A stretch of 64,000 nt of DNA, from positions 1-64,000 of the forward strand of contig NZ_PJNW01000002.1 in assembly GCF_002844595.1 (NCBI RefSeq). The letters run 5' to 3'. Of this stretch, positions 6,249-15,741 are shown piece after piece; the stretch's first letter is position 1, and every line of letters begins with the position of its first letter. This DNA comes from Pleomorphomonas diazotrophica. GTDB lineage: Bacteria > Pseudomonadota > Alphaproteobacteria > Rhizobiales > Pleomorphomonadaceae. Under the pieces are notes generated by a model. The model saw only the letters and a program-made list of their open reading frames with translations, did not search any database and was not told the origin of the DNA. The position numbers and the translations under genes are program-made.

Positions 6249-6598
6249 GATCGCTTCCTTTCGCGCGGGGAGCGGTCGCGGCAATCAGCCGGACGACCGC
6301 CTCACAGGCCCGCCGCCGCCACCCCGTCCGTGGCAGTTGATGCGGGCGTGAAGAAGAGGTTTCAACAACTTGCCCGGCGCCCGAAGCGGACGTGACTACG
6401 CCTTGCTACGGATGCCTTTCCGGCCCCCTTTATGCATCAACGCCAACCATTGTCCAGTTGGTCCGCCTGAGAATTTGGTCTGATTTTTGGATTTGTTCCA
6501 AAAAGATTGGGAGCCGTTACCGGCTCCCTACAGCGCGCTTGCCACCGGTCCGTTTCCGGACCAGTGCACTCCTGTTTTTGTTCGGGACGCAGCCTTGC
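6249..6598. other. intergenic region between petA and the heptaheme gene
   Basis: A gap of about 350 bases with no credible gene. Its left part is the probable promoter and leader of petABC. At 6500-6528 it holds the terminator of the leftward cytochrome locus. A moderately AT-rich patch (about 6470-6510) includes the T-run of that terminator. Confidence 0.6.
6500..6528 (-). terminator. rho-independent terminator of the heptaheme cytochrome operon
   Basis: The inverted repeat GGGAGCCG (6509-6516) and CGGCTCCC (6521-6528) has a 4-base loop. On the minus strand it is followed by a T-rich run. It lies 70 bp past the heptaheme gene stop. Confidence 0.8.
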
Positions 6599-7432
6599 TC
6601 AGTGGACCTTTTGCCATCCCACGCCGGGGATGTCGTTCCAGGAGTTGGTGAGGTGGCAGGCCTGGCAATCCTCCACCTTGGCATCGGGACGCTTCGCGAT
6701 CGGCTGCGACATCATGGTGAAGTGCTCCATGTAGTGGCTGGGCGGCGCCTGATGGCACTGGTTGCAGTCGCGGGTATTGGGGGAGGGGTGGACGAACTCG
6801 GGAATGGACCAGACCTTGGTGCTGTGACAGGAAGCGCAGTCCGAGCCGAACTGGTTTTGATGCGGGTCCTGTTTGGCGTGGCAGGATGAGCACTGCAACA
6901 CCTCCGCTTCGGGCGAGCCGCCCTTCGCCTTGCCGTGCTCGATGCCCGCGAGATAGCGTTGCAGGTCGGTGAGAAGCGGCGAGGTTTTCGCCGGCGCGCC
7001 GGACGCCCTGGCGGAAAGGTCGATGCCGGCCTTGGCGAGCACCTGATGATCCATGGCGATCGGCCGCCGGTCCTCTCCCTGGTGCTCGACGTGGCAGCCC
7101 GCGCAGGTGCCGATGTCGGCATGGAAGGCGGTGTCCTGCGTTTCCAGAAGGCGCGGGTTTTCCGCGTGGCAGGTCAGGCAGGCGGTAGCCTCCGGTCCCT
7201 TGTAGGGCGTGTGGCAGCTCTCGCACTTGTCGGTCAGGAAGGCATGTGCCTTGGACAGCGGGCCCGGATTGACCCAGCCCTTCCAATCCTTCCATGTCGC
7301 CGGCTTGGTGACGGCGGGCGCCGTCGGGGCCGGCTTGGCGCCGTCGAGCGCCGACTGGGCGTAGGCCATCTGGCCGAGCCAGTTGCCGGCGAGAAACATG
7401 AGAAGGGTGAGGATCTGAACGACGATTCTCAT
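6599..7432 (-). CDS. periplasmic heptaheme c-type cytochrome
   Basis: The 277-residue protein has a signal peptide (about 1-25) and seven CXXCH heme c sites, at residues 70-74, 85-89, 110-114, 181-185, 199-203, 223-227 and 256-260. Extra histidines (for example H63, H104, H117, H129, H191, H215, H233, H237) could serve as second axial ligands. The grouping is three hemes, a 66-residue heme-free spacer, then four hemes, resembling tetraheme/cytochrome c3-like modules. The ATG overlaps the stop of the upstream cytochrome b gene as ATGA, so translation is probably coupled. Inferred role: periplasmic electron sink or relay for the membrane cytochrome. I know no named family for this exact architecture. 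Confidence 0.88.
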   Translation of the reverse strand: MRIVVQILTLLMFLAGNWLGQMAYAQSALDGAKPAPTAPAVTKPATWKDWKGWVNPGPLSKAHAFLTDKCESCHTPYKGPEATACLTCHAENPRLLETQDTAFHADIGTCAGCHVEHQGEDRRPIAMDHQVLAKAGIDLSARASGAPAKTSPLLTDLQRYLAGIEHGKAKGGSPEAEVLQCSSCHAKQDPHQNQFGSDCASCHSTKVWSIPEFVHPSPNTRDCNQCHQAPPSHYMEHFTMMSQPIAKRPDAKVEDCQACHLTNSWNDIPGVGWQKVH

Positions 7433-8163
7433 AGCGGCAGCCACCTCAGCCCGAAGTAGAAGGCCTGCCAGATGTGCAGGCCGAGCAGGATCATCAAAGC
7501 GATCGACAAGACGATATGCAGGATGAGCCAGCGCCGGAATGCCGCCCTGACGGCGGCATAGGCGGCGATGGCCGACTTGACGTCGGCGATGGCGGCGGCC
7601 ACGTCATGGGGACGGGGCGGCCTTTCGCCATCGTGCCGGCGCCAGGGGGTGAGCTGCCAGCCGAGATAGACGAGGAAGTTGCGAGGTACCGGCTCCGCTG
7701 GCCGGTCGCTCTCCAGAAGCTCGTCGAAGTTCCGGCTCAGTCCGTGAAGCAGTTCCTTCTTGTCTCTCAGCTGCTCGGCCACCCGGCTCAGAATGTAGCG
7801 GCCTATGTAGCCGCTGAGCGCGGTTGCCAGCATCAGGGCGGTGAGGGCGATGCCGAGGCCGTGCTCGAAGCGCCGTCCGGTGTGGATCAGGCCGAGGATC
7901 GGCCCGATCAATCCGGCGTAGATGTGGAAGGTCAGGAAGGCCCGGAGGCCGCGCGGGCCGCCGAACAGGCGCTTGACAGCGCCTATTCGCCTGACCGGCG
8001 TGTAGAGCACGGACGCAAGCATCAGGAGCGCGCCGGCGATGCCGATCAGGCTGCCGCCCAGGCTGCCCGCGAAGCGCGGTTGCTCTTCGACGAGAAAGCC
8101 GAACGCCAGCGTGATGAGCAGGACGATCAGGCCCCAGGACAGGATGCGTTCGCGATCGCTCAC
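7429..8163 (-). CDS. diheme b-type membrane cytochrome
   Basis: A 244-residue protein with about five membrane helices (near 8-26, 37-58, 74-97, 103-126 and 212-241). Two helices carry paired histidines 14 residues apart, H80/H94 and H216/H230. That is the geometry of two stacked transmembrane b hemes, as in bc1 cytochrome b and ferric-reductase-like proteins. A soluble Arg/Pro-rich loop of about 80 residues separates the pairs. It sits between the [2Fe-2S] protein gene (1 bp gap) and the heptaheme gene (4 bp overlap). Inferred role: transmembrane electron transfer. Sequence outside the histidine pairs matches no family I can name. Confidence 0.8.
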   Translation of the reverse strand: MSDRERILSWGLIVLLITLAFGFLVEEQPRFAGSLGGSLIGIAGALLMLASVLYTPVRRIGAVKRLFGGPRGLRAFLTFHIYAGLIGPILGLIHTGRRFEHGLGIALTALMLATALSGYIGRYILSRVAEQLRDKKELLHGLSRNFDELLESDRPAEPVPRNFLVYLGWQLTPWRRHDGERPPRPHDVAAAIADVKSAIAAYAAVRAAFRRWLILHIVLSIALMILLGLHIWQAFYFGLRWLPL

Positions 8164-8164
8164 C

Positions 8165-9433
8165 TCATGCCCTCACGATGACCTTGCCGCGCGGATAGGA
8201 CTGGCAAGCGAGAACCATGCTGTCCTTGACCGCATGGGCGGTGTCCTCGCCTTCGGTCAGGATGTCTCCCTGAACGACCTTGATCTTGCATCCGTTACAG
8301 GTGCCGGCCAGACAACTGCCGCTGATCTCCACTTCGGCCCGTTCCGCCGCGTCGTAAAGGGTTTCTCCCGGCTCGAGAATAACCGTCTTTCCCGAGCGCG
8401 AGAACACCACTTCGGCAGGTCCTGGCTCACTCGTCGGGACTGGCGCCTTCCCGGGGCTGGCTCGCGACGTCGCCGCCTGCTCGGCCGGCTCGGCCGGAGG
8501 GGACGGGACGGGTGCAGCCGTGGGAGTGGTGGGAGGCGCGGCCGGTGCCCGGTGGGTCAGATGCGGCAGGTGGGCCGATATCCGCCGGACGAGCTGGGCG
8601 GCGGCACCCATGCGATAGATGTAGGCGGTCACCAGGGTGACGGAGGCGAGGATGAGCGCCACCATCACGGTGAGGTGGAACGGTGTCAGGCCATAAATCA
8701 CCCACTCGTCGTTGGCTTCCACCAGGCTGGGCATGTTCATCTGCCGGCGAAACCAGCCGAGTGCCACTTGCTGGGGCGCTTCGCCGGCCAGGACGCGTTG
8801 CCCGGACAGCCCGGCCTCGGTGAGCGCGGCCCCCTGCTTGATGAGATTGAGGGCGTTGCGGACGGCGAGGGCGTCGGCCTCGGCCGTCCTGCGCGACAGT
8901 TGGACGAGGCCGTTCGTCATCAGGGCGGCTCCCGCCGAAATCGACTGACGGGATTGCATCTCAAGGGAGACGCGCTGCTCGGGGCCGACCTCAGGCATCG
9001 CCATCAGGCTGGGGTAGAAGGCCGGCTGCGGCATGCTCATTTCGCCCATCATGGCCATCATCTGGCCCGCGCCGGACGTTGACACCGTCGAACTGCCGGA
9101 CATCGGTGGGGCGGACGGGGCGGAAGGAGACGGCATGGTGGCGAGCGCCGTCTTGGGAATGTCGGTCGGTGCCGCATATTGGCCGGCCCCGTAGGCCGGA
9201 GCATAGGTGAGGCCCTGCATCGGCCCAGTCTGGGGCATCGGCGCGGCCTGGGGCATCGCCTGGCCCGGATGATGGGCCGCGTGATCGGGTGGCGGGACAT
9301 CGGCAAGGGCCGGCGATGTTCCGGACAGGACCATCGCCAGCGCGGCCGTCAGGGCTGCGTTCAGGAGCAAGCCGGCAGGTTTGGAGCGCACATGGGCACG
9401 CTTGCCGCCGCAAGCAATCGGCATCAGAGGCAC
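8165..9433 (-). CDS. membrane-anchored protein with C-terminal [2Fe-2S] ferredoxin domain
   Basis: A 422-residue composite protein. It has an N-terminal signal or anchor (about 21-44) and a Met/Pro/His-rich low-complexity stretch (45-150). A helical region (150-240), one strong membrane helix (about 249-273) with flanking arginines on its C-terminal side, and a Pro/Ala linker (295-338) follow. The C terminus is a plant-type ferredoxin domain with ligands C374, C379, C382 and C410. The positive-inside rule puts the ferredoxin in the cytoplasm and the Met-rich part in the periplasm. The GTG at 9433 is preferred because GAGGA precedes it; an ATG lies at 9424. The gene is 1 bp from the cytochrome b gene and clearly co-transcribed with it. 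Inferred role: electron entry point. Confidence 0.82.
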   Translation of the reverse strand: MPLMPIACGGKRAHVRSKPAGLLLNAALTAALAMVLSGTSPALADVPPPDHAAHHPGQAMPQAAPMPQTGPMQGLTYAPAYGAGQYAAPTDIPKTALATMPSPSAPSAPPMSGSSTVSTSGAGQMMAMMGEMSMPQPAFYPSLMAMPEVGPEQRVSLEMQSRQSISAGAALMTNGLVQLSRRTAEADALAVRNALNLIKQGAALTEAGLSGQRVLAGEAPQQVALGWFRRQMNMPSLVEANDEWVIYGLTPFHLTVMVALILASVTLVTAYIYRMGAAAQLVRRISAHLPHLTHRAPAAPPTTPTAAPVPSPPAEPAEQAATSRASPGKAPVPTSEPGPAEVVFSRSGKTVILEPGETLYDAAERAEVEISGSCLAGTCNGCKIKVVQGDILTEGEDTAHAVKDSMVLACQSYPRGKVIVRA

Positions 9434-9510
9434 GGGAGATTCCTCGATCGAAAGGGAAGGAAGGCGCCCGGAGCCCGACGCCGTGAGGGACGCCGGGCTC
9501 CGGACTCCGC

Positions 9511-10248
9511 TTACTTGATGACGTGCGAGTTATGCGTGCTCTGGTCGGCCGGCGCGGCCGGCGCGGCCGGATCGGTGATCTGGGCGGCGGCCTGTCCCCA
9601 GGCCAGGGTCTTCAGCGTCTGCAGCTCGGTTTCATGCGAGGCGAGCACCTGTTCGGCGATCTTGCGGATCTCCGGGTTGGTGCCGTGCAGGAGCTCGATC
9701 CGGGCAAGGTCGATGCCGGCCTCATGCTGGGCGATCATGCCCTGCAGGAAGTCCTTGTCCGGCGCGCCCGTGAGCGGCTGATTCAGGATGTTGACCAGCC
9801 GCGAGTAGGTCCAGGCCGTGGCCTGGGCGGCCGGCGTCGGCGGCACCTGAACCTGCGGCGCCGGGAACTGGTTCGCCTGCGGTGCGGCCGCTCCCGGCAT
9901 GGCGTTCATCATCGGCTGGCCCATCATCTGGCTGGGCTGCATGCCCGGCATGGCCTGCTGCATCTGCTGCGGGGTCATCATCATGCCCGGTTGGGCCATC
10001 GGCTGCTGCTGGGCCTGCGGCGCCGGCATGCCGGGCTGCTGCATGCCTTGCTGGGGCATGTTGCCCATCTGCCCGCCGCTCGGCATCGGCATCTGCATCT
10101 GGTCCATCATCATGCCGCCCGAAGACGAGCCCGAGGGCATCGAGGAGCCACCGCCCATGGGCATCATCATCATGGCAAAGGACGGAGCGGCGAAGGCGAC
10201 GGTGGCAAGGGCGACGGTCGCAAAGAGGGTGGAGTGAAGCTTAGTCAT
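9511..10248 (-). CDS. secreted Met-rich protein with DUF305-like C-terminal domain
   Basis: A 245-residue exported protein with a signal peptide (about 1-25). Residues 26-135 are extremely rich in Met, Gln, Pro and Gly (MMM, QMQMP and GMQQPGM type runs). A helical C-terminal domain (about 145-210) contains DFLQGMIAQHEAGIDLAR and ASHETELQTLK, resembling DUF305 four-helix proteins with their M..HH/AI signature. Met-rich stretches typically bind Cu(I), and several DUF305 proteins sit in copper loci, so a periplasmic copper role is a reasonable inference. The gene follows the Cys-rich gene and precedes the ferredoxin gene on the same strand, with a gap under 80 bp to the latter. Confidence 0.8.
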   Translation of the reverse strand: MTKLHSTLFATVALATVAFAAPSFAMMMMPMGGGSSMPSGSSSGGMMMDQMQMPMPSGGQMGNMPQQGMQQPGMPAPQAQQQPMAQPGMMMTPQQMQQAMPGMQPSQMMGQPMMNAMPGAAAPQANQFPAPQVQVPPTPAAQATAWTYSRLVNILNQPLTGAPDKDFLQGMIAQHEAGIDLARIELLHGTNPEIRKIAEQVLASHETELQTLKTLAWGQAAAQITDPAAPAAPADQSTHNSHVIK

Positions 10249-10409
10249 GGTTTTCCTCGGTTTCTGAATGCAGACCGGCGCGCCTCTCAGGGCGGCATGT
10301 TCGTCTGCGGATTTTCAGGATGTTCCGGCCGTGGCCGAAAAGCTGATCGTGCTTCAACCGGTCGGACGCTCGCGCCAGGCGCGGCCATTCCGACGGAGTG
10401 GTGGCAGGA

Positions 10410-10784
10410 TCAGGACCGAGGGGGCTCCATGGGCGGCTCCGGCCCATAAAGCGCAACCGTCGCCTCGTTGGAGGGGACGGGACGAATGCCGAATGCCGCG
10501 CTGGCCGTCTTGGCGATCAGGGCGGCGGTGCCGGGCACGCATTTGGCCATGCAGCTTGCCGCGCCGACGCAGGCGATCTTGCCGCAGTCCATCTTGCCGG
10601 ACGGATGCGTGGCGCAACAGGGATCGGCATCGAGAGAGGTCAGGACCGGACCCGGCTGGGCCAGATCCATGACCGTTGAGCCGTGCTCGGCATGCATGGC
10701 GCTTGCCGTCGCCAGAGGCAACGACAGCATGCCCAGGATCGCGACCCAGGCAAACAGCCAGCGAAAGTGAGACAAACGGCCCAT
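10410..10784 (-). CDS. small Cys-rich secreted protein
   Basis: A 124-residue protein of no named family. It has a signal peptide (about 1-29), six cysteines at 56, 57, 67, 72, 78 and 82 in a CC...C....C.....C...C pattern, and a Pro-rich tail ending PPMEPPRS. It looks paralogous to the divergent gene at 10920-11327: same plan, similar Cys block and a matching PPRS tail. The ATG at 10784 gives the signal peptide but has no good ribosome-binding site, so the start is uncertain. Clustered thiols in an exported protein suggest metal binding or disulfide structure. Copper is the likely ligand, judged only from the neighbours. Confidence 0.6.
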   Translation of the reverse strand: MGRLSHFRWLFAWVAILGMLSLPLATASAMHAEHGSTVMDLAQPGPVLTSLDADPCCATHPSGKMDCGKIACVGAASCMAKCVPGTAALIAKTASAAFGIRPVPSNEATVALYGPEPPMEPPRS

Positions 10785-10919
10785 GTATATAAGTTGGCAC
10801 AGGTTCCGTGTGGCTGCCATTGATATAAAATACGTATCGAATCCCGGCCATGCCGCCGGGTTTCCGGGCGAAATGGAGTTGTTGGGGAGAGGTGACCGCC
10901 GGGCGAGGCCTTGACCGCG
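10785..10919. promoter_or_regulatory. divergent control region of the redox/copper-like locus
   Basis: The only gap where transcription diverges between the leftward five-gene set and the rightward two-gene set. It contains an AT-rich core (about 10818-10840) with the 8-bp palindrome ATACGTAT at 10830-10837, flanked by TTGATA and TATCGAA. No regulator gene is adjacent. A metal-responsive (CueR- or CsoR-like) operator would be expected, but I cannot identify one with confidence. Confidence 0.45.
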
Positions 10920-11327
10920 ATGGTTGCCGAACCACATACTTGCCCATCTCTGAGCGGGTTAGGTCCCTTGGTACGCCCCTTCGTGTTGCTCATTGCGGTG
11001 CTTGCCCTGCTTCTGGCCGTCGCGCCGGGATCGCATGCCTATGGCGCCGTGATGGGGGCGGGTCCGACCATGTCCTCCTCGCACGGCGACCCCGATGGCT
11101 GTGCCTCGGCAATGGCTCTCAAGGGCCAGACGCAACAGCACGATGCTGGCGGCTGCGCCAAGATGAACTGCTGCCTGGGCGCGATGTGCGTCTTTGCCGG
11201 CCTGCCGTCGACGGCGGTCGTTGCTACGGCACCGGCAACGGCCGTGCTGTCCCTTTCGTCGGTGACCGCCGCCCTCAACGGCCGTGACGTCGCCCCACCT
11301 CTCGATCCTCCCAGATCATTCGTCTGA
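10920..11327 (+). CDS. small Cys-rich secreted protein (paralogue)
   Basis: A 135-residue exported protein. It has a long hydrophobic signal (about 18-39), then cysteines at 61, 79, 84, 85 and 90 in CAKMNCCLGAMC, and a C-terminal PPLDPPRSFV tail. C8 lies before the signal. The plan mirrors the divergent gene at 10410-10784, though identity is low. The ATG at 10920 is chosen; a TTG at 10911 is an alternative. It precedes the multicopper oxidase gene by 143 bp. I do not recognise the family. Position and thiol content suggest periplasmic copper handling, which is inference. Confidence 0.6.
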   Translation: MVAEPHTCPSLSGLGPLVRPFVLLIAVLALLLAVAPGSHAYGAVMGAGPTMSSSHGDPDGCASAMALKGQTQQHDAGGCAKMNCCLGAMCVFAGLPSTAVVATAPATAVLSLSSVTAALNGRDVAPPLDPPRSFV

Positions 11328-11470
11328 CCGTTTGTCGCGGATTTCCGCCAACGCTTTCACTCGAAATCTCGCCTCCCGGCGAGCAGCGCGCCGTTGGCCG
11401 CTGGAACACTTCATTTCAACGCAGTTCCGAGCGCAAAAGACTTTCACTGGAACTGCTCTGGGGATCGATC

Positions 11471-12925
11471 ATGAACCGCAGAACTCTCCTCAAGACCGCC
11501 CTCGGCGGCGCCGCCATCCTGTCGCTGCCGACGTTGCGTGCCTTTGCCGCGACGACGCAGACCCTGACGCTGGCCTCGCGGACCATCGAGGTGAACGGCC
11601 GCGCCGCCACCGTCTATTCGCTCACCGGTCCCGATGGAAAGCCGGGCCTTACCTTCGATGCCGGCGCCGATTTCGACGTGGCGCTGGCCAACACGCTCGG
11701 CGAGGATACCATCGTCCACTGGCACGGGCTGACGCCGCCGTGGGATCAGGACGGGGTGGCCGACGCGCCGAAGCCGATGCTCAAGGCCGGCGAGACGCGG
11801 GCCTATCGCTTCCCGGTGGGCAGCGGCGGCACCCACTGGATGCACGCCCATACGCTGCAGGAGCAGAACCTACTGGCGGCGCCGCTGATCGTGCGGCGCC
11901 CGGAGGAGACGGCCGCCGACGAGCAGGAAATCGTCATCCTGCTGCACGATTTCTCCTTCACGTCGGCGGCGGAGCTGCTGGCCAAGCTGAAGGGTAACAC
12001 GTCGGGCGGACATGCCATGTCGGGCATGGGCCATGACATGCCGGCGATGGACATGTCGATGCAGGGCATGGATCACGGCGGCATGGACATGGGCTCGATG
12101 AAGGGCATGGACCACGGCGAAGCCATGGACCTCAACGACATCGAATACGACGCCTATCTCGCAAACGATCGTACGCTCGACGATCCGGAGGTGGTCAAGG
12201 TCGAGAAGGGCGGCAACGTCCGCCTGCGCATCATCAACGGCGCGACGGGGACAGCCTTTTCCATCGACCTCGGCAGCCTCGAGGGGCAGGTGATTGCCGT
12301 CGACGGCCAGCCGGTGCAGCCGGTCGACGCCCGGCGCTTTCCGATGACCATGGGGCAGCGGCTCGACATTCGCCTCCGTGTTCCTCAGGAAGGCGGGGCC
12401 TTCCCCATCCTGGCGCTCCGCGAGGGCGGGACGCAGCGGACCGGCATCGTCATCGGCACCGCCGGATCGACGGTGCCCAAGCTGTCGCCTGTGGGCGAGG
12501 TGGCGGGACCGGTGGTCGACATTGCCCAAGAGGTCGGCCTGCGGGCCATCGCGCCGCTGGCCGATCGGCCGGCCGATGTCCGCTATGTCGTCGATCTCAA
12601 GGGCGACATGGCGGGCTACACCTGGTCGATGCCCGGCAGCGAGGCGATCAGGGTGACGAAGGGACAGCGGGTCGAGATCGACATGCGCAATGCCTCGATG
12701 ATGGCCCATCCGATGCACCTGCACGGCCATCATTTCCAGGTGGTCGGCCTCGACGGTGGCCCGCGCTTCTCTGGCGCGGTGCGCGACACCGTGCTGGTGC
12801 CGCCGAACAGGACCGTCACCATCGCCATCGACGCGGAAAACCCCGGCCGCTGGGCGTTTCACTGCCATCACCTCTACCACATGGCAGCGGGCATGATGGG
12901 GACCTTCGCCTACGACGACGTGTGA
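11471..12925 (+). CDS. Tat-exported multicopper oxidase (CueO/CopA type)
   Basis: A 484-residue periplasmic laccase-like enzyme that couples substrate or Cu(I) oxidation to reduction of O2 to water. The Tat signal begins MNRRTLLKTALGG. Copper ligands are all visible: HWHG (83-86), HAH (125-127), HPMHLHG (413-419) and HCHHLYHMAAGM (464-475), with type 1 ligands C465, H470 and M475. Residues 181-219 form a Met/His/Asp-rich insert (GMDHGGMDMG type), as in CueO and CopA, where such loops bind Cu(I). The three-domain length is normal. Cuprous oxidase activity is the likely role; substrate is not proven by sequence. Confidence 0.93.
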   Translation: MNRRTLLKTALGGAAILSLPTLRAFAATTQTLTLASRTIEVNGRAATVYSLTGPDGKPGLTFDAGADFDVALANTLGEDTIVHWHGLTPPWDQDGVADAPKPMLKAGETRAYRFPVGSGGTHWMHAHTLQEQNLLAAPLIVRRPEETAADEQEIVILLHDFSFTSAAELLAKLKGNTSGGHAMSGMGHDMPAMDMSMQGMDHGGMDMGSMKGMDHGEAMDLNDIEYDAYLANDRTLDDPEVVKVEKGGNVRLRIINGATGTAFSIDLGSLEGQVIAVDGQPVQPVDARRFPMTMGQRLDIRLRVPQEGGAFPILALREGGTQRTGIVIGTAGSTVPKLSPVGEVAGPVVDIAQEVGLRAIAPLADRPADVRYVVDLKGDMAGYTWSMPGSEAIRVTKGQRVEIDMRNASMMAHPMHLHGHHFQVVGLDGGPRFSGAVRDTVLVPPNRTVTIAIDAENPGRWAFHCHHLYHMAAGMMGTFAYDDV

Positions 12926-12937
12926 CGATCAAACATG

Positions 12938-12963
12938 GCGCGAGGCGGCCTGCTGCCTCGCGC
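12938..12963. terminator. bidirectional hairpin between the multicopper oxidase and the GNAT toxin
   Basis: The 9-bp arms GCGCGAGGC (12938-12946) and GCCTCGCGC (12955-12963) lie between two convergent genes; the right arm touches the toxin stop codon. There is no strong T-run, so termination efficiency is uncertain. Confidence 0.55.
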
Positions 12964-13481
12964 TATTCCACCTCTCGCAGGGAAGCGGCAATATCTGCCA
13001 TCGAGCGGAACAGGAGCAGTTCATCGTCCCTGGAGGGCAGGAAGCCACGCCGGCGCCAGAAGGCAGCGGCGTCAGGATCTATGGCGTTGACCAACAGGGC
13101 TCGGCCGCCGATCAGGCCGGCGGCTGTCACGCAGCGCGTCAAGGCGTGCTTGACCAAACCCGTTCCGATGCCTTGGCCGACATAGGCGATATCGGTCGCC
13201 AACTGCCCGAGCAGCAGACAGGGAACAGGGTCTGGCGGCTGGCCGGTGCGGATCGATCGGGGCATGGCGGCCGGCATGACGGCGGTCGGCGCGAGACCAT
13301 AATAACCGACCATCCGACCCACGTCGTGAACGACGATGACGGCGGTAAAGCCCTTCTGCTGATTGGAAAGGGCGCGTGTCTTCAGCCAGGTATCGAGGGC
13401 GGGCTTGCCGCAGGCAAAGGCTGAAACGTCATGCTCGGCCGTCAGAGGTTCGGGCGCTGACAGATGCGCTGACCGGGGCAT
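12963..13481 (-). CDS. GNAT acetyltransferase toxin (TacT/AtaT-like)
   Basis: A 172-residue GNAT-fold protein with the acetyl-CoA loop GQGIGTGL (about 117-124) and a C-terminal AFWRRRGF block typical of the TacT/AtaT toxin family. Known members acetylate the amino acid on charged tRNAs and block translation. The N-terminal FACGKPALDTWL and YGLAP blocks also fit. The start lies 3 bp after the stop of a DUF1778 gene, the standard antitoxin-toxin order. Family assignment is firm; the tRNA target is not visible. Confidence 0.88.
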   Translation of the reverse strand: MPRSAHLSAPEPLTAEHDVSAFACGKPALDTWLKTRALSNQQKGFTAVIVVHDVGRMVGYYGLAPTAVMPAAMPRSIRTGQPPDPVPCLLLGQLATDIAYVGQGIGTGLVKHALTRCVTAAGLIGGRALLVNAIDPDAAAFWRRRGFLPSRDDELLLFRSMADIAASLREVE

Positions 13482-13484
13482 TGA

Positions 13485-13784
13485 TCAGGGCTCGTTGCTC
13501 TCGGATGCTTCCCAGGGCGCCGGACGCTTCAGCACCTCGACCATTTCCGAGACTGGCCGGGCCGGCTCCGACAGCACGTCGACGAAGGATTGAAACCCCT
13601 CCGGGCTCATGCGGATCGGCAGCGTTTGGAGCAGAACGTCTTCCGCTGCCTGCATGGCGGCCTCCCGGACGAAATCGGTTCTCGACCGGCCGCGCAGCCG
13701 CGCGGCGCGATCGATGATGGCGAGATCCGCTTCGGGCAGGCGCATCGACAGCGGATGGTCCTTGCGTTCGGCTTTGCCTGGCAT
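13485..13784 (-). CDS. DUF1778 ribbon-helix-helix antitoxin
   Basis: A 99-residue antitoxin with an N-terminal ribbon-helix-helix DNA-binding part (HPLSMRLPEADLAIIDRAA) and the TDFVREAAMQAAEDVL helix typical of DUF1778/TacA. A C-terminal tail, probably disordered alone, would wrap the GNAT toxin. The start at 13784 follows GAGGAG with good spacing; an earlier in-frame ATG at 13799 has none. It probably represses its own operon through the palindrome at 13820-13838. Confidence 0.88.
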   Translation of the reverse strand: MPGKAERKDHPLSMRLPEADLAIIDRAARLRGRSRTDFVREAAMQAAEDVLLQTLPIRMSPEGFQSFVDVLSEPARPVSEMVEVLKRPAPWEASESNEP

Positions 13785-13819
13785 GGTGTCTCTCCTCATC
13801 AGAGCGTAAGGTAACGCAT

Positions 13820-13838
13820 GTAATGCAAAATGCAATAC
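13820..13838. promoter_or_regulatory. palindromic operator of the toxin-antitoxin operon
   Basis: A 19-bp near-perfect palindrome of the form GTA-n-TGCA-nnn-TGCA-n-TAC, with 7 of 9 pairs matched. It lies 36 bp upstream of the antitoxin start in an AT-rich patch that stands out from its surroundings. Ribbon-helix-helix antitoxins normally bind such sites to autoregulate. Confidence 0.65.
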
Positions 13839-13848
13839 AACGAGCGAC

Positions 13849-15741
13849 TCAAGCCGGCTCGTCCTCGTCGATGTTGAGGAAGCCGCCGGTCTGGCGGCTC
13901 CAAAGGCCGGCGTAGAGCCCGCCCTTGGCGACGAGGTCGGCATGGCTGCCCATCTCTATGATGCGGCCGCGATCCATGACGACCAGCCGGTCCATGCGGG
14001 CAATGGTGGAGAGACGGTGGGCGATGGCGATCACCGTCTTGCCCTCCATCAGCACGCCGAGGCTCTCCTGGATGGCCGCCTCGACATCCGAGTCCAAGGC
14101 GGAGGTTGCCTCGTCCAGCACCAGGATCGGCGCGTTCTTGAGGAGCACGCGGGCGATGGCGATGCGCTGCCTCTGGCCGCCGCTGAGCTTCACGCCGCGC
14201 TCGCCGACATAGGCGTCGAAGCCGGTCCGTCCCTTGTTGTCCACGAGGTCGGGGATGAATTCGTCGGCGTGGGCCATGCGGGCGGCGGCCAGCATTTCCT
14301 CGTCGCTGGCGTCGGGACGGCCGTATTTGATGTTGTCGCGGATCGACCGGTGCAGCAGCGAGGTGTCCTGGGTGACCACCCCGACAGCGGCGCGCAGCGA
14401 GTTCTGCGTGACCTTGGCGATATTCTGCCCGTCGATGCGGATGGCGCCAGTTTCAAGGTCGTAAAGGCGCAGGAGCAGGCTCACCAACGTCGACTTGCCG
14501 GCGCCGGAGCGGCCGACGAGGCCGATGCGCTCGCCCGGCGCGATATCGAGCGTCAGGTCGTCGATGGCGAGCCGCGCGTCCTTGCCCGTCCCGTAGCCGA
14601 AACTGACCCGGTCGATCTCGATGCCGCCGCCGGTGACGGCGAGCGGCTTGGCGTCGGGACGGTCGGTGATGAGCTGGGGCCGCGACAGCGAGCGCACCGT
14701 GTCGTCGAGCGTGCCGACGCTCTCGAACAGGTCGGAGAGGCTCATGGTGGCGAAGCGCGACAGTTGCTGGATCTGCATGGTCATGGCGATCACCGAGGCG
14801 ATGTCGCCGGGGGTGGCAAGGCCATGGCTCCATAGCCGCACGCCGACAAGACCGCTGGCGGCGAGCAGCAGGCCGTTGACCAGGGTGAGCATGGCGGAGA
14901 GGCCGGTCATGAGCCGCATCTGCTTGCCGGTGGCCGTCACGCCGTTTTCCAGCGCCTCGCGCACATAGGCGTCCTCGCGCGTCGAAGCGGTGAACAGGCG
15001 CACTGTCATGTAGTTGGAATAGCCGTCGACGAGGCGGCCGGAGAAGATCGAGGCGGTGTCGGCCACCTCGCGGGCGGCGGCGCGACTCTTGGGCACGTAG
15101 GTGGAGACGAGGATGGCGTAGGCCACCGTCCAGACGATGAGCGGCGCGGCGAACAGCGGGTGCTTGACGAGGAGATAGCCGACGACGCCGACCATGTAGA
15201 GCACGACGAACAGCAACTGATCGGCGAACAGGCGGAGTAGCGAGCGGATCGCCTGGCCGGTCTGCGTCACCTTGGTGGCAATGCGGCCGACGAAGTCATT
15301 CTGGAAGAAGGAAATGTCGGCGCGGGCGACGAACTCGTGGGTTCGCCAGCGGACCAGCGTGCCGATGTTGCGCGACAGCACCTGATTGCGGACGAGTTGG
15401 GCGAGGAGGGCGATCAGCGGCCGTGCCGCCAGCAGCAGAAGCAGAAAGACGAGGATGACGCGTCCGTCGATGACGCGGTCGCCGCTCCTGTCGGCCTCGG
15501 TCACCGCGTCGATCAGCCAGCCGATGCTGATGGGCAGCGCCACCTCGATCAGCGACAACAGCAAGGTCAGCCCTGCCATCACGGCCAGCGGCCAGCCGGT
15601 CTCGCCGAGAAAGAAGCGAAGAATGCGCCACTTGGTCGTCGGCGGGGTCAGCGGATGGACGCCCGACGTTGGCTTGAAGGGATCGATCCGGGTCTCGAAC
15701 CAGGCGAACAGGCGGGTTGCGGCGGATCGAAGAGAGGACAT
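13849..15741 (-). CDS. ABC transporter, fused membrane and ATPase domains (exporter half-transporter)
   Basis: A protein of about 630 residues of the multidrug/lipid exporter (MsbA-like) class. An N-terminal six-helix transmembrane domain is followed by a nucleotide-binding domain with GRSGAGKST (Walker A), LSGGQRQR (signature), ILVLDEATS (Walker B) and an AHRLST H-loop. It should act as a homo- or heterodimer in the inner membrane; the substrate cannot be told. The start is uncertain: ATGs at 15741 and 15792 both lack strong sites. Its ATPase domain is almost the same as that of the gene at 19084-20964, whereas the membrane domains are much more divergent. The toxin-antitoxin operon lies directly downstream on the same strand. 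Confidence 0.88.
   Translation of the reverse strand: MSSLRSAATRLFAWFETRIDPFKPTSGVHPLTPPTTKWRILRFFLGETGWPLAVMAGLTLLLSLIEVALPISIGWLIDAVTEADRSGDRVIDGRVILVFLLLLLAARPLIALLAQLVRNQVLSRNIGTLVRWRTHEFVARADISFFQNDFVGRIATKVTQTGQAIRSLLRLFADQLLFVVLYMVGVVGYLLVKHPLFAAPLIVWTVAYAILVSTYVPKSRAAAREVADTASIFSGRLVDGYSNYMTVRLFTASTREDAYVREALENGVTATGKQMRLMTGLSAMLTLVNGLLLAASGLVGVRLWSHGLATPGDIASVIAMTMQIQQLSRFATMSLSDLFESVGTLDDTVRSLSRPQLITDRPDAKPLAVTGGGIEIDRVSFGYGTGKDARLAIDDLTLDIAPGERIGLVGRSGAGKSTLVSLLLRLYDLETGAIRIDGQNIAKVTQNSLRAAVGVVTQDTSLLHRSIRDNIKYGRPDASDEEMLAAARMAHADEFIPDLVDNKGRTGFDAYVGERGVKLSGGQRQRIAIARVLLKNAPILVLDEATSALDSDVEAAIQESLGVLMEGKTVIAIAHRLSTIARMDRLVVMDRGRIIEMGSHADLVAKGGLYAGLWSRQTGGFLNIDEDEPA

Follow-up and report, generated by a model that had tools for sequence, protein, structure and literature searches.

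A mobile redox-gene trio inserted beside a multicopper oxidase unit in Pleomorphomonas diazotrophica is a candidate electron outlet for copper stress

The proposed porin-cytochrome conduits PCC3 and PCC4 carry an inner-membrane protein with a distinctive signature, namely five transmembrane (TM) helices, two Hx13H motifs on TM3 and TM5, and SGxxG on TM4 (He et al. 2017, PMC5566968). Enzymes of the FRE/NOX type (PF01794 plus FAD and NAD domains) have two b hemes fed by cytosolic NAD(P)H and FAD. In Escherichia coli MsrPQ, a membrane b heme protein moves cytosolic electrons to the periplasm. Here we compare with these systems a locus of Pleomorphomonas diazotrophica (genome of 4.5 Mb), studied in a stretch of 64,000 nucleotides referred to as the window. 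The locus holds a trio of adjacent genes for an Fe-S protein, a diheme membrane cytochrome b (cytB) and a heptaheme cytochrome c (cytC). Judged from its sequences, the trio is a conserved, mobile, cross-phylum family, and it may let electrons out across the membrane under copper stress, a proposal whose probability we put a shade below even.

One scan of GTDB genomes yielded 419 relatives, and 80 loci were kept, these being the ones most similar to the window and no random draw. Gene order is conserved and the genes are tightly packed in Alpha-, Beta- and Gammaproteobacteria, Planctomycetota, Bacteroidota and others. The recurrent order, seen in Pseudomonadota, Planctomycetota, Chloroflexota and Elusimicrobiota among others, is Spy/LTXXQ or another small exported protein, then the Fe-S reductase, cytB and cytC, and the Spy/LTXXQ gene often occupies the position of the window's CopM/DUF305-like gene. 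Protein searches found the trio on 52 plasmid records (Sphingobium, Alteromonas, Legionella, Spirosoma, Variovorax and others), of which 26 are predicted to be conjugative. Near-identical copies appear in the tree across different orders, e.g. in Thalassolituus and on a Methylophaga plasmid, and the Pleomorphomonas pair forms a separate long branch. When 399 genomes were drawn evenly from the phylum, the window's genome counted, strong cytB matches were present in seven. Chance open reading frames (ORFs) were rejected on this family conservation. No description of the trio was found in the open-access literature searched, which is weak evidence of absence, and the family is apparently widespread and undescribed. 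The initial annotation knew of no described system with this gene set, which turns out to be an FNR-less version (FAD and NAD domains missing) of a widespread family.

The Bradyrhizobium BTAi1 plasmid (L053:304-2458 and 9397-12669) carries two different trios, one of them with a short Fer2 ORF beside an IS3 transposase. Trio islands L050, L053, L024, L055 and L046 contain recurrent DUF3141, DUF1622, alpha-glucan phosphorylase or AdhP genes, a stress cargo with no obvious copper link. In Legionella (L067, L069, L070, L072, L075, L111, L117 and L119), the trio adjoins an apparent extra F-type (N-type) ATPase operon, with resistance-nodulation-division (RND) pump genes in several.

The locus is composite. 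Five leftward genes, for the small Cys-rich protein CysA, a CopM-like protein and the trio, diverge from two rightward genes for CysB, another small Cys-rich protein, and a multicopper oxidase (MCO). All seven occur in the same order in P. oryzae. In five other Pleomorphomonas genomes (L155-L159), petABC (cytochrome bc1) is directly followed by the divergent CysB-MCO unit, and the trio, CopM and CysA are all missing there. The flanks align over this empty site: on the petA side the homology runs up to window positions 6542-6562, and on the CysB side the three longest matches pick it up again from 10889-10908. Among 14 genomes of the genus, nine have MCO relatives and two the heptaheme gene. 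Because the flanks align across the empty site in five congeners, the alignments identify the five leftward genes as an insertion of ~4.35 kb beside an older CysB-MCO pair, loss in the other genomes being a less simple alternative. The divergent layout arose by insertion on this account, and therefore gives no evidence for one designed unit. The seven genes had been taken as one system. Co-occurrence holds for P. oryzae, only the CysB-MCO pair is found in L155-L159, and most relatives have other copper genes; a single conserved seven-gene system was rejected on the empty sites. In P. oryzae, two additional genes that the window does not have lie between the heptaheme gene and petA (L023:11222-12579), one for a small exported protein and the other for a NarI-like nitrate-reductase gamma subunit (PF02665, 1.4e-45).

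The window cytB bears the signature of the PCC3/PCC4 membrane protein (H80-x13-H94, H216-x13-H230 and SGYIG at 117). Two Hx13H motifs and an SGxxG-like motif are present in 50 of 50 aligned cytB proteins, and homology to PCC3-like membrane proteins reaches E values of 1.7e-14 to 3.7e-21. The AlphaFold2 (AF2) model of cytB (pLDDT 86.6) has five long helices, at residues 3-25, 35-58, 70-95, 102-152 and 185-240. The window cytC has seven CxxCH motifs and matches Cytochrom_c3_2 and Cytochrome_C7. Exactly seven CxxCH recur in 80 of 80 relatives, and additional His residues are invariant in the family, their number being sufficient for bis-His ligation; the AF2 model of the heptaheme protein is poor (pLDDT 63). 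The cytC profile matches the 18-heme cytochromes of PCC3-like loci at E values of 5.7e-37 to 1.7e-46, which are inflated by the repeated CxxCH.

Other searches with the two cytochromes returned little. For the cytB model, a fold search against the PDB gave nothing at E ≤ 0.001, with cytochrome b561, Dcytb and STEAP4 as merely weak matches. Sequence searches of the PDB gave no match for the cytC profile; the cytB profile gave matches at chance level and one to a putative ferric reductase (E 0.2). The 50 cytB proteins hit no meaningful NCBIfam family, and the window cytB has no Pfam match.

As in PCC3 and PCC4, the genes of the membrane protein and of a homologous periplasmic multiheme cytochrome are adjacent. 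On the other hand, the trio has seven hemes versus 18 or more, and its family adds an FAD/NAD/2Fe-2S reductase with a copper-like head and a copper-gene context. Because a porin and an extracellular cytochrome are missing, the trio is no PCC. Could it be a reduced conduit of the PCC3 type, respiring an extracellular acceptor or taking electrons from Fe(II)? The homology of both cytochromes and the cytB signature would fit, but we regard this as very unlikely, as no porin-type or extracellular multiheme gene is found in the inserted segment, no second multiheme gene recurs in relatives, and just 6 of the 61 loci of at least 15 kb have CopB, a predicted outer-membrane barrel, in their vicinity. 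Incidental to this comparison, distant cytB relatives in genomes of the window's order (L029, L031, L032, L035 and L040) stand beside 18-heme cytochromes. Several have giant 23- to 65-heme proteins nearby, and because of these neighbours the five loci look like PCC3 conduits.

With FRE/NOX enzymes, the trio relatives would share the feeding of two b hemes from NAD(P)H and FAD. They differ by separate subunits, five helices, a plant-type 2Fe-2S cluster and a heptaheme c output. PF01794 (Ferric_reduct) matches weakly in 15 of 50 cytB proteins (best E 0.005) and not in the window's. FRE/NOX-type FAD and NAD(P)H domains are absent in the window and P. oryzae, and lie on a separate subunit in relatives. 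The trio may work like a split ferric-reductase/NOX enzyme, but its sequences do not clearly place it in that group.

The Fe-S protein of the window ends in a 2Fe-2S domain (Pfam Fer2, 4.6e-11). Its counterparts in ten of ten relatives contain FAD_binding_6, NAD_binding_1 and Fer2 by Pfam, and a profile of the FNR region matches 73 of 80 loci. Two of the seven misses are real (P. oryzae and the planctomycete L083), while the remaining five seem truncated at contig ends. Aligned with relatives, both the window protein and its P. oryzae counterpart retain the exported head, the TM helix and Fer2, but all that should lie in between is missing. This alignment makes the Pleomorphomonas copy an FNR-less version of the family and a natural domain-deletion experiment. 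After the signal peptide, nearly all full-length relatives have HxxHH and then a Met-rich stretch, with YPSLM as usual; the window reads DHAAHHP ... MMAMMGEM ... YPSLM. Such a head probably binds copper beside the electron-transfer chain. The window thereby has the features of the trio family, i.e., an adjacent Fe-S protein with the HxxHH/Met head, a diheme cytB and a heptaheme cytC.

With the FAD and NAD domains gone, another cytosolic protein must donate electrons in Pleomorphomonas. A profile search found no FNR-like reductase in the window, and one FAD_binding_6 protein found in the genome reads as a stand-alone FNR-type reductase. We considered it quite unlikely that the FNR-less trio has acquired a new donor or direction, such as quinol or electrons linked to bc1, or that it is a remnant in decay. 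Its insertion just upstream of petABC, and in line with it, would suit that explanation, as would the long branch of the Pleomorphomonas pair. So would L083 (2187-4960), where the first protein of the trio stops after the TM helix with no FAD, NAD or Fer2 domain, and a 678-aa fusion of multiheme c and cytochrome b561 lies upstream, perhaps a quinol-fed version. However, all ligand residues are retained and the trio genes show dN/dS of 0.17-0.25 against P. oryzae, and the copy is therefore not decaying; these ratios indicate purifying selection despite domain loss, and decay of the FNR-less copy was rejected on them.

Copper genes accompany the trio. Strict copper genes (MCO, CopB, Cu-ATPase, DUF411, DUF305, CopC and four-helix Cu protein) were counted within ~10 kb at the 61 loci, with 13 loci of distant cytB relatives as controls. 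They occur at 43 of 61 trio loci versus 1 of 13 controls (Fisher p = 4e-5), as labeled by phmmer against a hand-made set and with loci that are not independent. Seven trios from evenly drawn genomes, a check less biased to the window, include four with strict copper genes (L177, L179, L025 and L026); L024 and L178 have metal-type RND pump genes nearby, and L027 has neither. The L024 pump scores above the CusA/CzcA cut-off, and the copper P-type ATPase adjoining the L026 trio above its own. In annotated plasmid records, the surroundings of the trio include CopA/CopB oxidases, copper ATPases, heavy-metal regulators, DUF411 and DUF305. In most relatives, the copper genes beside the trio differ from the window's. 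These neighborhoods, together with the conserved periplasmic HxxHH/Met-rich head, support the copper link that the initial annotation had drawn.

The window MCO, the CopM-like and Met-rich proteins, and the copper neighbors of relatives resemble the PcoA/CopA-CopB and CopM systems, but the trio was found in none of the described copper systems consulted. In one recent study, Cu(II) reduction for Cus export is just one listed possibility (PMC10304878). In the portion available of an Alteromonas copper paper, hydrogenase genes adjoin a copA island and the trio is unmentioned (PMC8478169).

The neighbors also bear on a supply of electrons for repair, as by MsrPQ, in which outward electrons would reduce oxidized methionines or thiols of the Met-rich (CopM/DUF305, MCO insert) and Cys-rich copper proteins next to the trio. 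The membrane protein has an FRD-type Hx13H plan. The trio differs from MsrPQ in having no MsrP and in its multiheme c output. By similarity labels, a gene for methionine sulfoxide reductase was seen neither at the locus nor in the recurrent neighbor clusters, and we regard this supply as very unlikely.

A general periplasmic exchanger that moves electrons to or from NAD(P)H is unlikely as well, though less so. Its main partner would be some redox enzyme such as a periplasmic [NiFe] hydrogenase, and copper genes would merely share stress islands or plasmids with it. Hydrogenase genes adjoin the trio in Alteromonas, a Xanthobacteraceae metagenome-assembled genome (MAG) and a cyanobacterial MAG, and are nearby on a Bradyrhizobium plasmid. 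Judged by gene order, orf1 and cyt of the Alteromonas HynSL cluster would correspond to the family's cytB and cytC; the sections available of that report study them just as hydrogenase accessories and leave the upstream FAD/2Fe-2S gene and any copper link undiscussed (PMC3102683). When the hydrogenase was expressed in E. coli, the same sections report, orf1 and cyt were dispensable for maximal activity, and they therefore fit electron partners rather than maturation factors. Nevertheless, hydrogenase structural genes are at 4 of 61 loci versus 43 with copper genes, and the HxxHH/Met-rich head is conserved even with no hydrogenase present.

We return to the electron outlet for copper stress. 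Cytosolic electrons would pass to the 2Fe-2S cluster, then to two b hemes in the five-helix membrane protein, and then to the periplasmic heptaheme cytochrome c, probably with bis-His hemes. This carrier order, already proposed in the initial annotation, is well supported at the sequence level by invariant candidate ligands, by the trio staying together across phyla, and by relatives with an FAD/NAD(P)H entry domain. The donor in most relatives would be NAD(P)H, because FAD and NAD(P)H domains are built into the Fe-S protein, whereas in Pleomorphomonas it would be a cytosolic ferredoxin or reductase. Periplasmic copper has a potential far above NAD(P)H, so that with this donor the flow should be outward. 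The likeliest job would be the reduction of periplasmic Cu(II) or copper-oxidized centers, enabling Cu(I)-specific chaperones and exporters. In Pleomorphomonas, the module would have joined the older CysB-MCO unit and brought along a CopM-like chaperone and a Cys-rich protein. The sequences show the gene content, its conservation, the lost domains, the empty site and the copper genes nearby; heme and Fe-S loading, flow direction, copper binding and the acceptor are what we infer here.

Several points weigh against this proposal. Strict copper genes are absent at 18 of 61 loci and some trios lie within [NiFe]-hydrogenase operons, so that copper is not necessarily the acceptor or donor. Copper labels rest on matches with a hand-made set, and nearness to the window decided which 80 loci were kept. 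For the Pleomorphomonas version, the search for a donor turned up just the one FNR-like FAD_binding_6 protein, and the open-access literature yielded no redox, expression or copper-binding data for trio members. At the window locus, extra Cu(I) production beside a Cu(I)-oxidizing MCO looks contradictory. In balance, the broader claim of a copper-linked outward relay stands at about even, and periplasmic Cu(II) or copper-oxidized centers as the acceptor at less than that. It is somewhat unlikely that the full picture applies, in which mobile cross-phylum conduits reduce copper, an NAD(P)H reductase with a copper-binding head driving a PCC3-like b-c wire, and Pleomorphomonas running on ferredoxin.

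Table 1 Features of the locus in the window
Feature	Position	Strand	Remarks
Inserted segment of ~4.35 kb with the five leftward genes	6542..10908 (about 6,550-10,890)		Edges each ± ~20 bp; empty site in five Pleomorphomonas genomes
Terminator-like hairpin just 3′ of the cytochrome c gene	6509..6528	-	Belongs to ancestral petA-side DNA
Putative periplasmic heptaheme cytochrome c (cytC7/cytC)	6599..7432	-	Likely start ATG 7432, ORF open to 7444; seven CxxCH
Putative five-helix diheme membrane cytochrome b (cytB)	7429..8163	-	H80, H94, H216, H230; SGYIG at 117
Fer2 protein: exported HxxHH/Met-rich head, one TM helix (~aa 253-275), cytosolic 2Fe-2S (aa 347-415)	8165..9433	-	
Met-rich exported CopM/DUF305-like protein	9511..10248	-	NCBIfam CopM and PF03713 scores below cut-off
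CysA, small Cys-rich exported protein	10410..10784	-	Signal-peptide-like start common to P. oryzae; no Pfam family
Sigma-70-type promoter of the CysB-MCO unit, TTGACC-18-CATACT	10911..10940	+	Aligned in five trio-less congeners
CysB, small Cys-rich exported protein, ancestral at the site	10968..11327	+	With MCO in five trio-less congeners
Three-domain multicopper oxidase (MCO), TAT-type, Met/His-rich insert	11471..12925	+	PF07731, PF07732 and PF00394 above cut-off

The seven ORFs were found where the initial annotation had placed them, and its assignments agree with the ORF check, the Pfam and NCBIfam matches, the seven CxxCH and the two Hx13H (Table 1). Also as annotated, Fer2 and cytB are separated by a 1-bp gap, and cytB and cytC7 overlap by 4 bp provided that cytC7 starts at ATG 7432. 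The CopM-like protein scores just under curated cut-offs, with 61.7 bits for NF049983 (cut-off 90) and 26.6 bits for PF03713 (cut-off 27). The MCO reaches 221.5 bits against TIGR01480 (CopA/PcoA), short of the cut-off of 478.95, and is still a multicopper oxidase by Pfam. In Pfam and NCBIfam, cytB, CysA and CysB have no family of their own.

The single 135-bp divergent region does not survive. It relied on a CysB start at ATG 10920, which falls within the promoter, the sole match in the 6.8 kb scanned. Because five congeners share this promoter, the start was shifted to TTG 10968, the likely one, and the gap between CysA and CysB becomes about 183 bp. The paralogy of the two Cys-rich proteins is only suggested: both terminate in PPxxPPR and the P. 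oryzae CysA orthologue scores 24 bits with the CysB profile, but the window CysA scores no better than shuffles.

Beside the MCO, on the minus strand (12963-13943), a GNAT acetyltransferase gene and a TacA-like ribbon-helix-helix antitoxin gene (PF08681, 4.8e-16) form a TacAT-type toxin-antitoxin pair. A GNAT homologue occupies the equivalent place in P. oryzae and L155.

If the proposed outlet is real, bacteria would have enzymatic control over the redox state of periplasmic copper. Models of copper resistance devote much space to how Cu(I) is oxidized and exported. An electron outlet that is common, borne on plasmids and found in the company of copper exporters would bring the redox state of periplasmic copper under enzymatic and testable control, and would connect metal resistance with proteins proposed for extracellular electron transfer.

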